A stretch of 64,000 nt of DNA from a virus. Positions 1,870 through 30,403 of the stretch are shown piece by piece. The translations under genes and the position numbers were made by a program. Numbering within the stretch: position 1 is the first letter of the stretch; each line of letters begins with the position of its first letter. The stretch spans positions 184,836-248,835 of IMG/VR virus record IMGVR_UViG_3300035703_000005; one strand, 5' to 3'. The notes under the pieces are model-generated. The model was not told the origin of the DNA and made no database searches. It saw only the letters and a list, made by a program, of their open reading frames with translations.

Positions 1870-4800
1870 TTAAATTGATGCTATTACACGTAGATCTCTA
1901 ATTAATGGTGTGAATGTCGTATTAGTTCCACTCATAATAATCTTAATTTGGAATCCATTGAATAATGGTAGATTTTTAGAAGTAAATTCATAGGATTTAA
2001 ATTCACCAATAGTTGAAGAAGGTAATACAAGTCTATCAGGTCTTCCACTATTATTTGCTGCACTTATCACTTGATTATTTTCATCTAAATTATCATAACC
2101 AGGGAAAAGTTCATATAATTGTGTAGATAGATCGGTATCAGATCTGAATAATCTATACATTACTCGGATATCACTTGTTGAATGCCTGTAAGCGTCAAAA
2201 AAGACTTTTAGATTATCAGATCCTCTTTCTAACCTTACAATTTTGGTAACATAACTACAAGCACTAGGATCATCTCTTAATGAATTGACTCTAGGATCTT
2301 TGGAATAATCAGAAATTTTTGAATTTAATCGGTTTCCAACAGTAATTAAATTTACTCTATCCAAATCAATTATAGGAGAAACTTTAGAATCAGTAGTTGA
2401 TAAGTTTACTTCCATTGTGAATGATTTTTTACCTGGGAAATCTTGTAAAAACTGATTTTCATTAACTTTAGAACAAATAATTCTTGGACTTGACAAGAAA
2501 TTATTAGAAGTAAGAGATATAGTTTCAAATCCCTGATCAACAAAAGCATTTATTGAATTATTATCGGGAGATCCGCCAGAAAAAGTTCTAATCTTAGCGG
2601 ATATTCCAGTTGATTGTGGAGTTAGAGTTTGAATGTTAGGTCTTACAACATTAAAAGATATATTTTGTGTGGCTTTTGGTGTTCTATTAGAAGAAGTTAA
2701 TTGTAAAGGATCATATGATCCACAACTCTTATTCTGATTAAAATATAGTTCTGGGAATCCATTTAAATTTCCTGCAGATCTATCAGTTCCATTAGTAGAT
2801 ATACCCAGTTTTACGTAATAGTAATCTAAATCAGTTGGATACTTCGAATGATCCGTTTCAGATAAATTATGAGTTCTGTTAATTCTTCTTAAAGAAATTC
2901 CATTCAATTCATATTTAAATACCTGTTGTGATGTAGAATAAGATGCTGGAATAGTAGAATCAATTCCTCTAGTTACGCCAGTTAAACTATTTGTTGAAGT
3001 GGTTACGCCAGTGTATCTAATTATTTCATCTCCGATTAAAATGTATCCAGGATTAAGAGCAGAGACTGGTAAATTTTCAAAACTTGTAAAAATTCCAACA
3101 GCACTTAAAGTTATATTAGAAGTAGCTGAAGAATTATAACTTGAATTTAATTTTTGTGGTTTTAGGTCAGATTCCAGTCCACTAAGAGTCACATAATCAT
3201 TTAAAGAATACATGCCATGATTATTATGTTTTACTTTGAAATGTAATCCGTCACTTATATTATTATTATAAGTTACAGTAGCTCCAGATAAAACTGTAGT
3301 TCCAGAAGTTCCGACATATATTAATTGGGAAGTACTATCTTGAATAATAGATCCTTGAATATTTTCAATTAATAAAGAATTAAATGATGAAATTACCCCT
3401 ACGTTATTAGGAATGGTTAAAATTAAATTTTTACCAAATCCATCAGTTTTTGTGTAATCTATGCTAAGAGCATCTCCATAAGCATAACCAGTTCCTCCTA
3501 TAGAAACTGTTGCAGCAACTGCAACTCCACCAGAAACAGTTAGGTTAACTTTGCCACCAACACCTCTTCCAGACAATGCGACTAGATCAACATTTGAATA
3601 TGTTATTGAGGATGAGGTAAATCCAGATCCAACTGAAGTAATCGATAATGTGCTTCCTATTCCTATCGCACCAACGACACTCTTTAACTTACCACTAAAA
3701 TTATTATTTGAACTTTGGAGAATAGTTACTCCTGGAGTTAAATTACTAACTTCACTTGAGGTTAAACTCTTAGCAATTCCAACTAGTGAAGATCTGGAAA
3801 TACAATCAAGAGGATTTGGTCGTAATGAAACAATTTGATTATTTCCGATATCCAGATCTGGATTATAGAATCTTACAGTGGTTTCTCCTTGATAAAAATT
3901 CGCTCTGTATAATTTTAACTTAAGATCTTCCAATTGACTTGGATCCCAAGTAGCTCCATTTTGTGATTTAAATAGGGAACCTAACAATGGTTGTTGTGAA
4001 ACAAGAATCTTTTCCGATTCTGCAAGATTAACAGTACTTATATCTTCTTCACCCATTCTCGAAATCCATACTGTATATTGATTTGAAGCAGATAATAGAA
4101 CTACACAATATGCATTACCTGTCTCAAGATATACTGGTGATGGGAAAGTGAACGTAGTAGGTACACTTGCATCTTCGGAAAGATTTACTTCTTCTGGTTC
4201 TAATACAACTTCACCAAAAGGTAATATTGTTTGAGTTGGTAAACCAGTCTGCATTGTTCTTACCTGAAGGGTAACTGGCAATCCAGATGTATCCTTCGTT
4301 TTAAAGAAAATCTCACATTTGGTCAAGAATACTCCATTTGCATCTGGAACTTCAAATGATTGAGCCAATGGATCAACCCATCTGGTTTGGGTAGTCGTTC
4401 TATTTGAAAAAGAAGTATTAGCTTGAAGAGTCGTATTTTGTTCGGATAATGTTCTGGTATCAGTTCTAACTTCTCTGGAGATATCTGCATTTCTAATTCT
4501 TAGGGTTGCATCTTCTACATTATTCAAAGTTCCCGCAGAAGTAAATACAGTTTCCGCTGTACTATCTACAGTACCAACAATTGTAGCATTAACATCACTT
4601 GTTGTAAGAGCAAATGTTTTAGTGCCAGTTTCAAAGGATGGTGTAGAAGGAAGTCTTGAATCTGGTATAAACAATGATCCGATTAAAGTTCCGGCATTAT
4701 CGGTAATCAATCTGACATTTTGAACAGTAGCAATAGCACCACTGGTTTGACCAACCAATTGCATATTTTGAACTATATAACCGTAAAATCCAGATGCAGA

Positions 4801-23801: not shown

Positions 23802-25670
23802 TTATCTTGTATATTTTCCGTTTAAGTAACTTGAAGTTGGGGTAAATAATGTTGCAGAAATGTTCTCACCTGAGGTAATAATATCTTCAATAATATTTAC
23901 CGTAGAATTTTGAACATCTACTTGTAAATATAGATCTTTTAATCCAACAACATCATTAGATTCTGGAATCGCTTGGACCTCTATCAATCCATTATTTAAA
24001 GAAGCTCCACTAATATTTACAACATCTAGAAGAACTTCTCCACGTTTGTAATCTACAGTACCAGCATTATTTTTAACGATAACAGGTTCATTATTTTCCA
24101 ATTTAAAGAAAAATATTTTACCAAAATTGGAATCTAATTGTGTATCAGCCATATAAACAACGTCACTTACACCATTAATAAAAAATCCAGTAGATTTTAT
24201 GGAATAACCATTCTTCTTGACATGAATCTCATTACCAAAACATAATTCATATGTTGCATTACTATTTAACTCAGGAATTAAATCTCTTCTCATCCTGACT
24301 TTAGTAATGTTTGACGTAATTGATTGATCAGTATCATCTATAAGAGCATTAACTTTACTGAATTTAAATCTTCCACCAAAACTATTGACATCGGAAGAAG
24401 ATGCATATGATATTAATGAATTTAAAACTTTAGTTCTAACTAACTCGGGATTAGTTGCTCTATTTACATTATAATAAATTGTGGTATCTAATTCAACATA
24501 AAGATATGAAAGATCTATAATTTCCGGTTGAATACCAGCGATAGAATATTGTTTTAAAGTTCTTAATATATCTTGTTTAGTAATTTGTGAAAGAAAATTA
24601 CCATTTCTAGGTTTTATAGAAATGAAAACTTTTCCATATTCAGGTGGATCAAGTTCTTCACCACCATAAGATGTGACCGAATCGACATTTGGATAAATGA
24701 ATGGTATTAATCCCTTATAATCGTTGGCGGTAACTGCACGATACTGAGAAGCATATACACGAGGAGCAAGATACTTTATCTTATCAATAGATTCTATATC
24801 ATCTCCATTTTCTGAAGCACTTAAAGTATTAACTAACGAGATTCCACTTGTAATATTTTGTAAGTTATTATCTTTTAAAATTCCAGAAAAAGTAAAATTA
24901 GAAGCCCCATTTCCAAGTCTTCCATTTGTTACAATATATGTGACATTAATTACACTTCCATTAGCTGGTTTTTTTCCAACAATGTTGTCTCCAAATATAA
25001 TTTCGTATTTTTGGTCCTCTATTTCTTGAATCAGGAAAATTCTCGAATTTCCATCAATATTTAAGATATTTGAATATGAACTATAAACTTCCGATACTTG
25101 ATTCCTAGCGGTAACTCTAATTGTTGTGGTATCTATGTTAGCGTTAGGTAAAATAAATCTTTGATTTGGTTGAGAATCATCTACAACGAATGTACTTGTT
25201 AGGTAAACACCTTCATATATCTCAATATTATTGAAAGTTGCAATACCATTATTGTCAACCGGTGTTGTAATATCATCCGGAATTGAAAAAATATAATTTC
25301 CATCTCTTACCGCTCCTAAAGCAACTTGTCCTGCAACAATTTTAACTGTTCTAGAGTCGGTTTGACTCATGTCTACAGTAAAATTAATCTTAGCTTTAGA
25401 AGACCTTTTAGATCTTGGAACATATCCTATATTTCTTGCAAGAGAAACTACATTTTCTCTAAGAGTAGCGCTGTCAAGAAATACTTCATTGACCGCCATG
25501 TTAGTGTTGAAGGCGGTAATGTAACTATTATATGCAAGTAAATCTATTAAAGTCGAGAAGTTAGATCCTTCAAAATCAAAATCAGTAAAATCACTGTTTG
25601 ATCTCAGGTAATCTTTAATTTGTGTTCTTAGATCCTGAAAATCTAAGTTGGTGAATTGATTGAAGGACAT
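23802..25670 (-). CDS. 6: Baseplate wedge subunit gp6 (622 aa)
   Basis: 622 residues, close to T4 gp6 (660 aa). It begins MSFNQFTNLDFQDLRTQIKD and contains FDFEGSNFSTLIDLLAYNSY at about 29-48, hallmarks of cyanophage gp6. Baseplate-J-like features follow (RNIGYVPRSKRSS, then a central PRVYASQYRAVTANDYKGLI motif near 300). It overlaps the stop of gene 25 by the ATGA arrangement (start 25670) and is followed one base later by the giant gene. It forms the inner wedge ring. Confidence 0.92.
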   Translation of the reverse strand: MSFNQFTNLDFQDLRTQIKDYLRSNSDFTDFDFEGSNFSTLIDLLAYNSYITAFNTNMAVNEVFLDSATLRENVVSLARNIGYVPRSKRSSKAKINFTVDMSQTDSRTVKIVAGQVALGAVRDGNYIFSIPDDITTPVDNNGIATFNNIEIYEGVYLTSTFVVDDSQPNQRFILPNANIDTTTIRVTARNQVSEVYSSYSNILNIDGNSRIFLIQEIEDQKYEIIFGDNIVGKKPANGSVINVTYIVTNGRLGNGASNFTFSGILKDNNLQNITSGISLVNTLSASENGDDIESIDKIKYLAPRVYASQYRAVTANDYKGLIPFIYPNVDSVTSYGGEELDPPEYGKVFISIKPRNGNFLSQITKQDILRTLKQYSIAGIQPEIIDLSYLYVELDTTIYYNVNRATNPELVRTKVLNSLISYASSSDVNSFGGRFKFSKVNALIDDTDQSITSNITKVRMRRDLIPELNSNATYELCFGNEIHVKKNGYSIKSTGFFINGVSDVVYMADTQLDSNFGKIFFFKLENNEPVIVKNNAGTVDYKRGEVLLDVVNISGASLNNGLIEVQAIPESNDVVGLKDLYLQVDVQNSTVNIIEDIITSGENISATLFTPTSSYLNGKYTR

Positions 25671-26068
25671 TAGACTCTAGTTGGTTGTAAAATAAATTCT
25701 ATAATTTGAGGAGGAACTGACAAACCAACAATATCATAGGATATTCGTACATTCAAATCATTAGAATCTTCTGGATATGAAACAACTACAGAACTTTTTT
25801 TAATTCTAGGTTCAAAGTTTTTAAGTAATGTTTCAATTTCAAGTTGCAAAGAATATGCAACAGTTGGTGATTGCAATTCAAAAACAGAATCTTCAATCTT
25901 TGTTCCGAGAATGTAGTTATAAAATCGTTCACCCAGCCTTGTTCTGACCAAATTTATAACAGATTTTTTAATGGCATCCTCATTCGTAATTGAAAGAATG
26001 TCATTAGTCACAGGATTTCTCGCAAATGAGAGACTAATATCTTTAAATTTGCGAGAAATCCTAGTCAT
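25670..26068 (-). CDS. 25: Baseplate wedge subunit gp25, GPW/gp25 fold (132 aa)
   Basis: 132 residues, the same length as T4 gp25. It contains the characteristic LSFARNPVTNDILSITNEDAI stretch near residues 12-33 and RTRLGERFYNYILGTKI at about 42-58, typical of the GPW/gp25 family that links the wedge to the sheath. A AATAAATA late promoter lies 16 bases before the ATG, leaving a very short leader. It is coupled to gene 6. Confidence 0.95.
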   Translation of the reverse strand: MTRISRKFKDISLSFARNPVTNDILSITNEDAIKKSVINLVRTRLGERFYNYILGTKIEDSVFELQSPTVAYSLQLEIETLLKNFEPRIKKSSVVVSYPEDSNDLNVRISYDIVGLSVPPQIIEFILQPTRV

Positions 26069-29312: not shown

Positions 29313-29573
29313 TCAATCACGAAGCTCTTGGATCATTTCATCCAGCTCAATGTGGTTCAGCTCAGGGTCATTCCAGAGTACACCATCAGGGGTGCAGCTC
29401 TTACCGAAATCATCAATCATAAGCTCTTGGAACTCGGCATAATCATCACACTGCAGAGCAATGCTGTAGAAACCATAATCATTGCCAATCCACAGAGCAA
29501 CATTCCAGGTCTCATAATTGCTCCAACCGTTGTAGGTCTCTTGTGCAAGCTTGGGCTGGAAGGTGGTGGTCAT
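29313..29573 (-). CDS. NGWSNYETWNVALW-type phage protein (86 aa)
   Basis: 86 residues. The YNGWSNYETWNVALWIGNDY segment at about 12-31 marks a small family widespread in phages (DUF7249-like by recollection). The acidic C-terminus LNHIELDEMIQELRD is helical. Start taken at MTTTFQ; the in-frame ATG farther up lies in the conserved promoter leader (ATGTTGAGAGG). Preceded by operator-promoter module at 29596-29654. Function unknown. Confidence 0.75.
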   Translation of the reverse strand: MTTTFQPKLAQETYNGWSNYETWNVALWIGNDYGFYSIALQCDDYAEFQELMIDDFGKSCTPDGVLWNDPELNHIELDEMIQELRD

Positions 29574-29583
29574 GTGTGTTCCT

Positions 29584-29654
29584 CTCAACATGGCTAAGAT
29601 ACCCCATCTGGCTACCCCATGGCATCATCTGTGGCCAGTTATTAAGCTGTCCAC
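29584..29654 (-). promoter_or_regulatory. Operator-promoter module 1
   Basis: Palindromic operator 29631-29654 (plus strand GTGGCCAGTT, ATTA, AGCTGTCCAC), an ATGCCA -35-like box and TATCTT -10 (29596-29601), then the conserved GCCATGTTGAGAGG leader with ribosome binding site. Leftmost copy of the 20-member family and the promoter nearest the DnaA-box locus. Confidence 0.65.
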
Positions 29655-29703
29655 TATTCACTCAGTTGTCAAGGTTCTATGGTAGGCTCATGATCCTTTG
29701 TGG

Positions 29704-29740
29704 CTTGAGCTTTACTTAAGCTTTCTTAAGCGGCTTAAGC
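29704..29740. repeat. Four phased CTTRAGC repeats
   Basis: CTTGAGC at 29704 and CTTAAGC at 29715, 29725 and 29734, spaced 11, 10 and 9 bp, so they sit on one face of the helix. They lie 100 bp from the first DnaA-box cluster, as iterons do at replication origins. Confidence 0.55.
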
Positions 29741-29837
29741 ACTCAGCCCCTTTATGCACTCCCACAGAGTTATTATAAGCCATTCAGAGGGCTTATGTCA
29801 AGCATGAGGATTAGAGCCCTTAGAGTGCTCATAAGGC

Positions 29838-29879
29838 TGTGGAAAACTTATAGACTTTTTCCACAAGTGTTGTGGAAAA
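29838..29879. other. DnaA-box cluster A (three TTTTCCACA)
   Basis: Three exact copies of the cyanobacterial-type DnaA box TTTTCCACA: 29838-29846 (minus), 29857-29865 (plus) and 29871-29879 (minus). One exact 9-mer is expected about once per 130 kb per strand, so three in 42 bp is not chance. Candidate origin or initiator-binding site. Confidence 0.65.
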
Positions 29880-29979
29880 CTTATAAGAACTGTGAGACCT
29901 TATGTGTAGCAAACTGTGTGGGTTCTGAGATTTATGTCCGGGTGCCATTGACATTTTAGCGGTCGTGTGATAGCCTGCC

Positions 29980-30111
29980 CGCTAAGATCACAAGGTCTCA
30001 GAGGCTTTTCAAGGGTGCTAACACAAGGTCTCAGAGGGCTTTAAGACTCTAGAAGCACCCTAAACTCACATGGCTTTGCGAAAGAAAGCTTTAACAAAGC
30101 CATGTTTTTTT
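29980..30111 (+). ncRNA. Candidate plus-strand structured RNA
   Basis: The only plus-strand transcript signal in the window. Stem AGGGTGCT (30012-30019) pairs with AGCACCCT (30054-30061); inside it TCT-C-AGAG (30029-30036) pairs with CTCTAGA (30047-30053). A strong terminator follows. A TTGACA -35-like box is at 29948-29953, with no good -10 at standard spacing, so the 5' end is approximate. Could be a primer RNA, antisense regulator or decoy RNA. Confidence 0.45.
30068..30111 (+). terminator. Rho-independent terminator on the plus strand
   Basis: Perfect 11-bp stem ACATGGCTTTG (30068-30078) / CAAAGCCATGT (30095-30105) followed by seven T residues (30105-30111). The T-run is on the plus strand only, opposite to every gene nearby, so a plus-strand RNA ends here. 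Confidence 0.75.
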
Positions 30112-30131
30112 AGCCATTTATTTTAAGCCCT

Positions 30132-30165
30132 TTTTCCACAGCTTTTTCCACAGCGTTGTGGAAAA
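30132..30165. other. DnaA-box cluster B (three TTTTCCACA)
   Basis: Exact TTTTCCACA at 30132-30140 and 30144-30152 (plus strand) and 30157-30165 (minus strand), 12-13 bp apart. Together with cluster A it flanks the structured RNA. AT-rich sequence (30101-30131) adjoins it and could serve as an unwinding element. Confidence 0.65.
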
Positions 30166-30250
30166 GCTATCATAACTCATTGTTAGCAACTCTCGGAGCA
30201 CTAGTAGTATGTAACTCCACTCCTCTCTAGGTGTTGTTTCCGTTGAGAGC

Positions 30251-30403
30251 TTAGGGGTCATAACTCTCTAACTCTACAGCCCCTTGAGCATAATCATCAT
30301 AGAACAGCTCATCCTCTGTGTGATTAGCATAGTGATCCATGATCTCTTGCTCAAAGTCAAAGAAGCTTTCTTCCCCGATAGGGTGAGCGTTAGCGATGTT
30401 CAT
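30251..30403 (-). CDS. Small acidic protein (50 aa)
   Basis: 50 residues (MNIANAHPIGEESFFDFEQE, ending GAVELESYDP), strongly acidic with no membrane segment. The ATG follows an AGGAGGAATAA ribosome binding site and overlaps the upstream gene's stop. Last gene before the DnaA-box locus. Function unknown. Confidence 0.65.
   Translation of the reverse strand: MNIANAHPIGEESFFDFEQEIMDHYANHTEDELFYDDYAQGAVELESYDP

Follow-up and report, generated by a model that had tools for sequence, protein, structure and literature searches.

Two trios of DnaA boxes in a non-coding gap

The window analysed here, a stretch of viral DNA 64,000 nucleotides in length, contains a non-coding gap between the ORFs at 29313-29591(-) and 30251-30403(-) that is crossed by small overlapping ORFs only and lies upstream of the baseplate wedge genes gp25 and gp6 (Table 1). 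A pattern count confirmed the original prediction that this gene-free stretch carries six exact copies of the 9-mer TTTTCCACA in 29838-30165, arranged as two trios and present on both strands, and revealed no other copy in the window. The whole record of 248,835 bp holds 14 copies, the eight outside the element being scattered singles. Each trio includes a convergent pair, TTTTCCACA-N5-TGTGGAAAA at 29857-29879 and TTTTCCACA-N4-TGTGGAAAA at 30144-30165. The chance expectation had been put too low, at about 0.5 copies per 64 kb, as dinucleotide-preserving shuffles gave a mean of 1.55 per window; six copies anywhere in the window were reached in 1 of 100 such shuffles, and the real six sit within 328 bp, which is far beyond chance.

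Table 1. Features of the element and its downstream anchor, in window coordinates.
Feature	Position	Strand	Basis
Baseplate wedge genes gp6 and gp25, the syntenic anchor on the downstream side	23802..26068	-	ORF list
Non-coding gap containing the entire element	29592..30250	.	ORF list, sequence
Sigma70-type promoter, TTGACA-N18-TATAAT, reading towards gp25-gp6	29772..29801	-	Sequence; conserved in L147/L148
Second box cluster, three TTTTCCACA (29838-, 29857+, 29871-; spacings 19, 14)	29838..29879	-	Pattern count
Conserved motif ATCTTAGCGGGCAGGCTATCACACGACCGCTAAAATGTCAA (family consensus TTGTAGTCTTAGCRCG..CTAWC..GTCAA)	29940..29988	-	PWM
AT-rich stretch GCTTAAAATAAATGGCTAAAAAAACATGG, candidate unwinding element	30098..30128	-	AT-rich stretch aligned across phages compared
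AT-proximal box cluster, three TTTTCCACA (30132+, 30144+, 30157-; spacings 12, 13)	30132..30165	-	Pattern count, alignment

Alignment of the locus across phages revealed a larger element whose order towards gp6 is boxes, AT-rich stretch, the motif TTGTAGTCTTAGCRCG..CTAWC..GTCAA, and a promoter of the TTGACA-TATAAT type. The AT-rich stretch, of which AAATGGTTTAAAAAACATAGG is another example in the alignment, falls within the lowest 10% of duplex stability for the surrounding ±4 kb in this phage and within 0.1-26% in seven others, and at motif-selected loci the AT content adjoining the last box is 0.77 versus 0.59. An AT-rich region therefore lies directly beside the boxes, as expected of a DnaA-dependent origin. 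The motif scores 23.1 bits at the element, the next best site in the genome reaching 11.5, and it is almost identical in the two closest relatives, L147 and L148. The motif shows no covariation and no Rfam match was obtained, and an RNA element was rejected on these grounds. Similar predicted promoters occur at the element in syn9, S-SSM5, S-SM2, S-CAM1, S-H35, and ACG-2014d, with up to 350 bp separating AT-rich stretch and promoter, a distance that weighs against an origin. A strong hairpin that resembles a terminator and includes a T run lies between the two box clusters at 30069-30117 (+) and is absent from L147 and L148.

Recurrence of the element at one syntenic place

To avoid selection by the boxes themselves, 20 phages were chosen solely by their gp6 protein and their whole genomes were scanned. 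Box clusters were present in nine (ACG-2014d, S-RIM2, S-H35, S-SM2, S-RIM44, syn9, S-SSM5, ACG-2014a, and S-RIM8), in every case 3-7 kb upstream of gp6, and no further cluster with copies less than 60 bp apart was found elsewhere in the genomes scanned. None of the four Prochlorococcus phages among the 20 carried a cluster. S-PM2, S-CAM1, and S-RIM32 likewise have clusters at this position, 3-7 kb ahead of gp25-gp6, and BLAST with the short element matched S-PM2, DSL-LC02, S-CAM1, S-RIM32, S-PRM1, and Sf-CH11; the AT-proximal trio is shared with S-PM2 (34-bp match, 97%) and S-RIM32. As a control for chance we ranked 9-mers within the locus, in place of a reversed-pattern scan of viral contigs, and TTTTCCACA was the 9-mer most often clustered in the gp6-upstream regions of named phages (14 loci, five of which had originally been located via boxes, a bias in its favour). 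A chance cluster, for which nothing beyond AT-rich composition speaks, is ruled out by this rank and by the syntenic recurrence, and its probability is negligible. The reversed-pattern scan (L225-L344) itself returned a recurrent arrangement, ACACCTTTT-N10-AAAAGGTGT, with a spacer of mostly 10 bp among the matches listed.

Some loci carry a second box site ~0.9-1.05 kb from the first (L481 ~1930, L490 ~1660, and L349 ~6554, from S-RIM44, S-RIM32, and ACG-2014d), and that of S-RIM44 lies ahead of another promoter-like leader. In S-PM2, annotations of tRNA-Leu and tRNA-Asn overlie the box cluster (L129 5932-6088; 19177-19333 of the S-PM2 record), but ARAGORN detects no tRNA throughout the stretch, and these tRNAs seem to be misplaced in the RefSeq coordinates.

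Relatives without the boxes had been named as evidence that would undermine the original prediction. Such relatives exist, as 11 of the 20 gp6-selected phages have no cluster, which counts against a DnaA origin, but most of them retain the rest of the element. The core is clearly kept at the same place in S-SCSM2R and Bellamy and well kept in S-CAM9 and P-RSM1; in S-WAM2 and S-H9-1 it is kept with TATTGAKAATCAATA repeats where the boxes would be. Motif scores are weak and near background in P-SSM4, P-TIM40, and ACG-2014e, where the context matches, and the motif scan did not find the core in P-HM2 or ACG-2014f. Selecting viral contigs by the motif alone yielded 44 real elements, some of them near-duplicates, and in 43 of these the boxes lie at most 260 bp upstream of the motif, the exception, L534, carrying TTATTGAGAATCAATAATAA; this set is not a census of relatives, because the motif version searched was derived from box-bearing phages. 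Inverted TATTGAKAATCAATA repeats resembling Fur boxes stand beside or instead of the boxes at the element in L493 (~3000-3200), L499 (~796, minus strand), L534, and L010.

These comparisons are consistent with one conserved modular origin having an exchangeable initiator module, consisting of DnaA boxes in many Synechococcus phages and of TATTGAKAATCAATA or nothing in others, which would precede a conserved core of AT-rich stretch, CTTAGCRCG motif, and promoter; we hold this reading tentatively, at somewhat less than an even chance. Alternatively, with no role in replication, host DnaA, or a Fur-like regulator at TATTGAKAATCAATA, may modulate the early promoter downstream, so that early phage genes would respond to the cell cycle or iron state of the host. 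A strong sigma70-type promoter is indeed conserved ~60-350 bp downstream, and the Fur-box-like TATTGAGAATCAATA, which has its TGA-GAA-TCA core in common with Fur boxes, stands in for the boxes in S-WAM2 and S-H9-1. However, the boxes are mostly separated from the downstream promoter by 100-350 bp that include the conserved AT-rich stretch and motif, and box-less phages retain both of these, making purely transcriptional control unlikely.

Host-type boxes and their arrangement

The 9-mer TTTTCCACA is the published cyanobacterial DnaA box, which domain IV of Cyanothece DnaA binds in vitro where boxes lie near one another, and Cyanothece DnaA binds closely spaced box pairs cooperatively (PMC4674748). 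We found TTTTCCACA upstream of dnaN in several Cyanobiaceae; some freshwater relatives carry the variants TTTTCCACC or CTTTCCACA, and the PsbA of the phage is nearest to those of Cyanobium/Synechococcus. The original description of the boxes as host-type is thus well supported by the published site, by its dnaN-upstream occurrence in Cyanobiaceae, and by its syntenic recurrence in many T4-like cyanophages. A cluster of cognate boxes, as a DnaA-dependent origin would have, is present, cognate here meaning the cyanobacterial consensus, and it is likely that host DnaA binds these sites. The element shares the 9-mer with dnaN-linked cyanobacterial oriC, and in one such locus (L451) boxes upstream of dnaN form arrays with 11-12 bp spacing, like the tandem spacing in the phages; in other Cyanobiaceae dnaN loci the boxes are spaced 20-21 and 37-43 bp apart. 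Unlike oriC, the phage element has no dnaN. A phage-encoded DnaA was rejected, as no match to PF08299 (the DnaA C-terminal domain) was found in the phage, as was derivation of the motif from host oriC, since CTTAGCRCG is absent from host dnaN loci.

Across 146 distinct clusters the box spacing is quantised, at 11-12 and 20-22 bp for tandem, 12-14 and 21-24 bp for convergent, and 19 bp for divergent boxes. The convergent share is inflated because many of these clusters were chosen for a convergent pair, a selection from which the tandem and divergent spacings are free. The spacings correspond to one or two helical turns, as expected of a protein bound on one face of the DNA. When viral contigs were searched for convergent boxes, the spacers peaked at 4, 5, and 3 bp among the matches listed, and the layout TTTTCCACA-N3..5-TGTGGAAAA greatly outnumbered any other in these matches, the pattern having been selected for palindromes. 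Together with the E. coli DnaA-box hairpin that loads DnaB (PMC6127211), this layout might point to a hairpin function, whether as a cruciform, as RNA, or as a single-strand site of the ABC-primosome type carrying the box in its stem. A hairpin is nevertheless lost where the syntenic boxes are in tandem or 21-31 bp apart, is not retained in one cluster of L147/L148, and is accompanied by no covariation in the motif; the defining feature of the primosome A site, a hairpin that is conserved and holds a DnaA box in its stem, is not found, and we regard a hairpin function as highly improbable. In L147 and L148 the second cluster keeps its orientation and spacing, and the spacing of one cluster differs with the boxes retained. 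Because of this altered spacing, and because the syntenic boxes of Sf-CH11, S-RIM44, S-CAM1, and ACG-2014d are tandem only, we conclude from the sequences compared that the conserved unit is the box and not the hairpin.

The original prediction also allowed for a sink that titrates host DnaA. In a broader version of this reading, the boxes would absorb host DnaA or alter its nucleotide state, as E. coli datA and DARS do, and so halt or reset host replication. The boxes are consensus sites, presumably of high affinity, in a cooperative layout; like DARS and datA they form small clusters outside oriC with some boxes facing, and a convergent pair with a third box resembles the DARS core, whose boxes I and II are in facing orientation (PMC8682772). 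Such a three-box core occurs in some phage clusters, but the purely tandem arrays of the four phages named above do not fit it, and the layout, unlike that of DARS and datA, is variable and attached to an AT-rich stretch and promoter. A sink is less likely because a decoy could do without the AT-rich stretch, the motif, the promoter, and a fixed place, and because the 2-6 sites per genome, six in this phage, are few early in infection; we consider it quite improbable. Marginally less probable than a sink is use of the DnaA-box-like site by another phage- or host-encoded protein such as a partition or packaging factor. The element occupies a single fixed place per genome and a ParB-like gene lies ~10 kb from it in DSL-LC02, but a ParB domain was seen in only one of 19 records tested, with a score below the cut-off, leading us to reject a ParB/parS centromere; the 9-mer, moreover, is the exact box of the hosts' initiator, with DnaA-like spacings.

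A candidate origin at the position of T4 oriE

Co-occurrence of the position, AT-rich stretch, boxes, and promoter makes the element resemble a replicator, and an origin, as originally proposed, stands as the best reading of this combination rather than as a demonstrated function. In the form we favour, to which we give about an even chance, the element would be a modular replication origin at the position of T4 oriE, opened by host DnaA where boxes are present. After infection, host DnaA would occupy both box clusters by cooperative binding along one DNA face; the AT-rich stretch next to them would then open, aided by transcription from the sigma70 promoter through to gp25-gp6, and the helicase loader gp59, the helicase gp41, and a T4-type replisome would load there. 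The first rounds of replication would start at the element, with recombination-dependent replication later taking over. A gp59 gene is present in the phage, which eliminates a missing helicase loader as a motive for DnaA use, and DnaA is not obviously required, since the phage encodes a complete helicase-loading route, with gp59, and a T4-type replisome.

Strand composition, which had been suggested as a check, gave no support: GC skew has neither an inflection nor a switch at the element, whether in this phage, in Syn9, or in S-PM2. It is a weak locator of origins here, because the genes run one way and the skew keeps one sign throughout.

The premise that T4-like phages normally use phage initiators proved loose, as T4 oriF and oriG initiate from transcripts of host polymerase and oriE, which carries direct repeats, requires an early promoter (review, PMC3016281). 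In Tequatrovirus T4, oriE (79,355) is found 1.7 kb upstream of gene 6, with oriF adjoining gene 25; in cyanophages gp25 and gp6 are adjacent with the element upstream of both. Like oriE, the element thus sits upstream of gene 6 of a T4-type genome and combines a repeat array with an early host-type promoter, here predicted from sequence. The match is positional, because DnaA boxes are missing from T4 oriE, whose repeats, not homologous to the cyanophage element, sit in the coding sequence of gene 5, whereas the cyanophage element is intergenic with its own AT-rich stretch and motif. T4 oriF (uvsY) and oriG resemble it in pairing a promoter with an AT-rich unwinding element (PMC3016281) but differ in their MotA-dependent middle promoter, R-loop, and lack of DnaA boxes, and in cyanophages the AT-rich stretch is upstream of the promoter, unlike in oriF and oriG. 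In the basal unwinding system, a DnaA box is joined by at least three DnaA-trios no more than 16 bp away in the correct orientation (PMC8287927). The last box of the phage clusters is frequently directed away from the AT-rich stretch. Host DnaA boxes adjoining an AT-rich stretch, in some cases with iterons, are also found in plasmid origins and in that of phage P1. In contrast to these origins, no Rep gene was identified here, and the phage is of strictly T4-like type and has a replisome of its own.

For the start of replication in cyanomyoviruses, which are abundant marine phages, the sources consulted give only a single theta origin predicted for Syn9 (review, PMC2984593), and the element provides a precise locus in the cultured phages S-PM2, where it lies at 19.2 kb, Syn9, where it lies at 52.6 kb, and S-RIM8. 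No description of it was found in the open-access literature on cyanophage DnaA boxes, DnaA, or replication origins, to which our search was confined, and we therefore treat its novelty as provisional. The arrangement suggests that this T4-like virus of photosynthetic bacteria and its box-bearing relatives may borrow host DnaA to begin copying their DNA. If so, phage replication would be tied to the host initiator, and through it to light and the cell cycle of the host, and initiator modules would be swapped at a conserved viral origin; were the module exchangeable as outlined above, a cellular initiator would feed a T4 replisome. The core motif could also mark cyanomyovirus genomes in metagenomes.

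Two further observations concern the surroundings of the element. An island of higher GC (0.38-0.47 versus ~0.31) with small ORFs begins near it and spans ~26000-60000 of the window. A leader-like repeat on the minus strand, ..CCAGTT..GCTGTCCACTGATC..GGTATCTTAGCCATGTTGAGAG.., occurs in nine copies (29590, 31607, 32556, 33613, 34481, 35198, 36105, 38149, and 39429) immediately ahead of small ORF starts, with two loose matches only in the remaining 184.8 kb of the record, and looks like a promoter or leader that recurs within a set of early genes.
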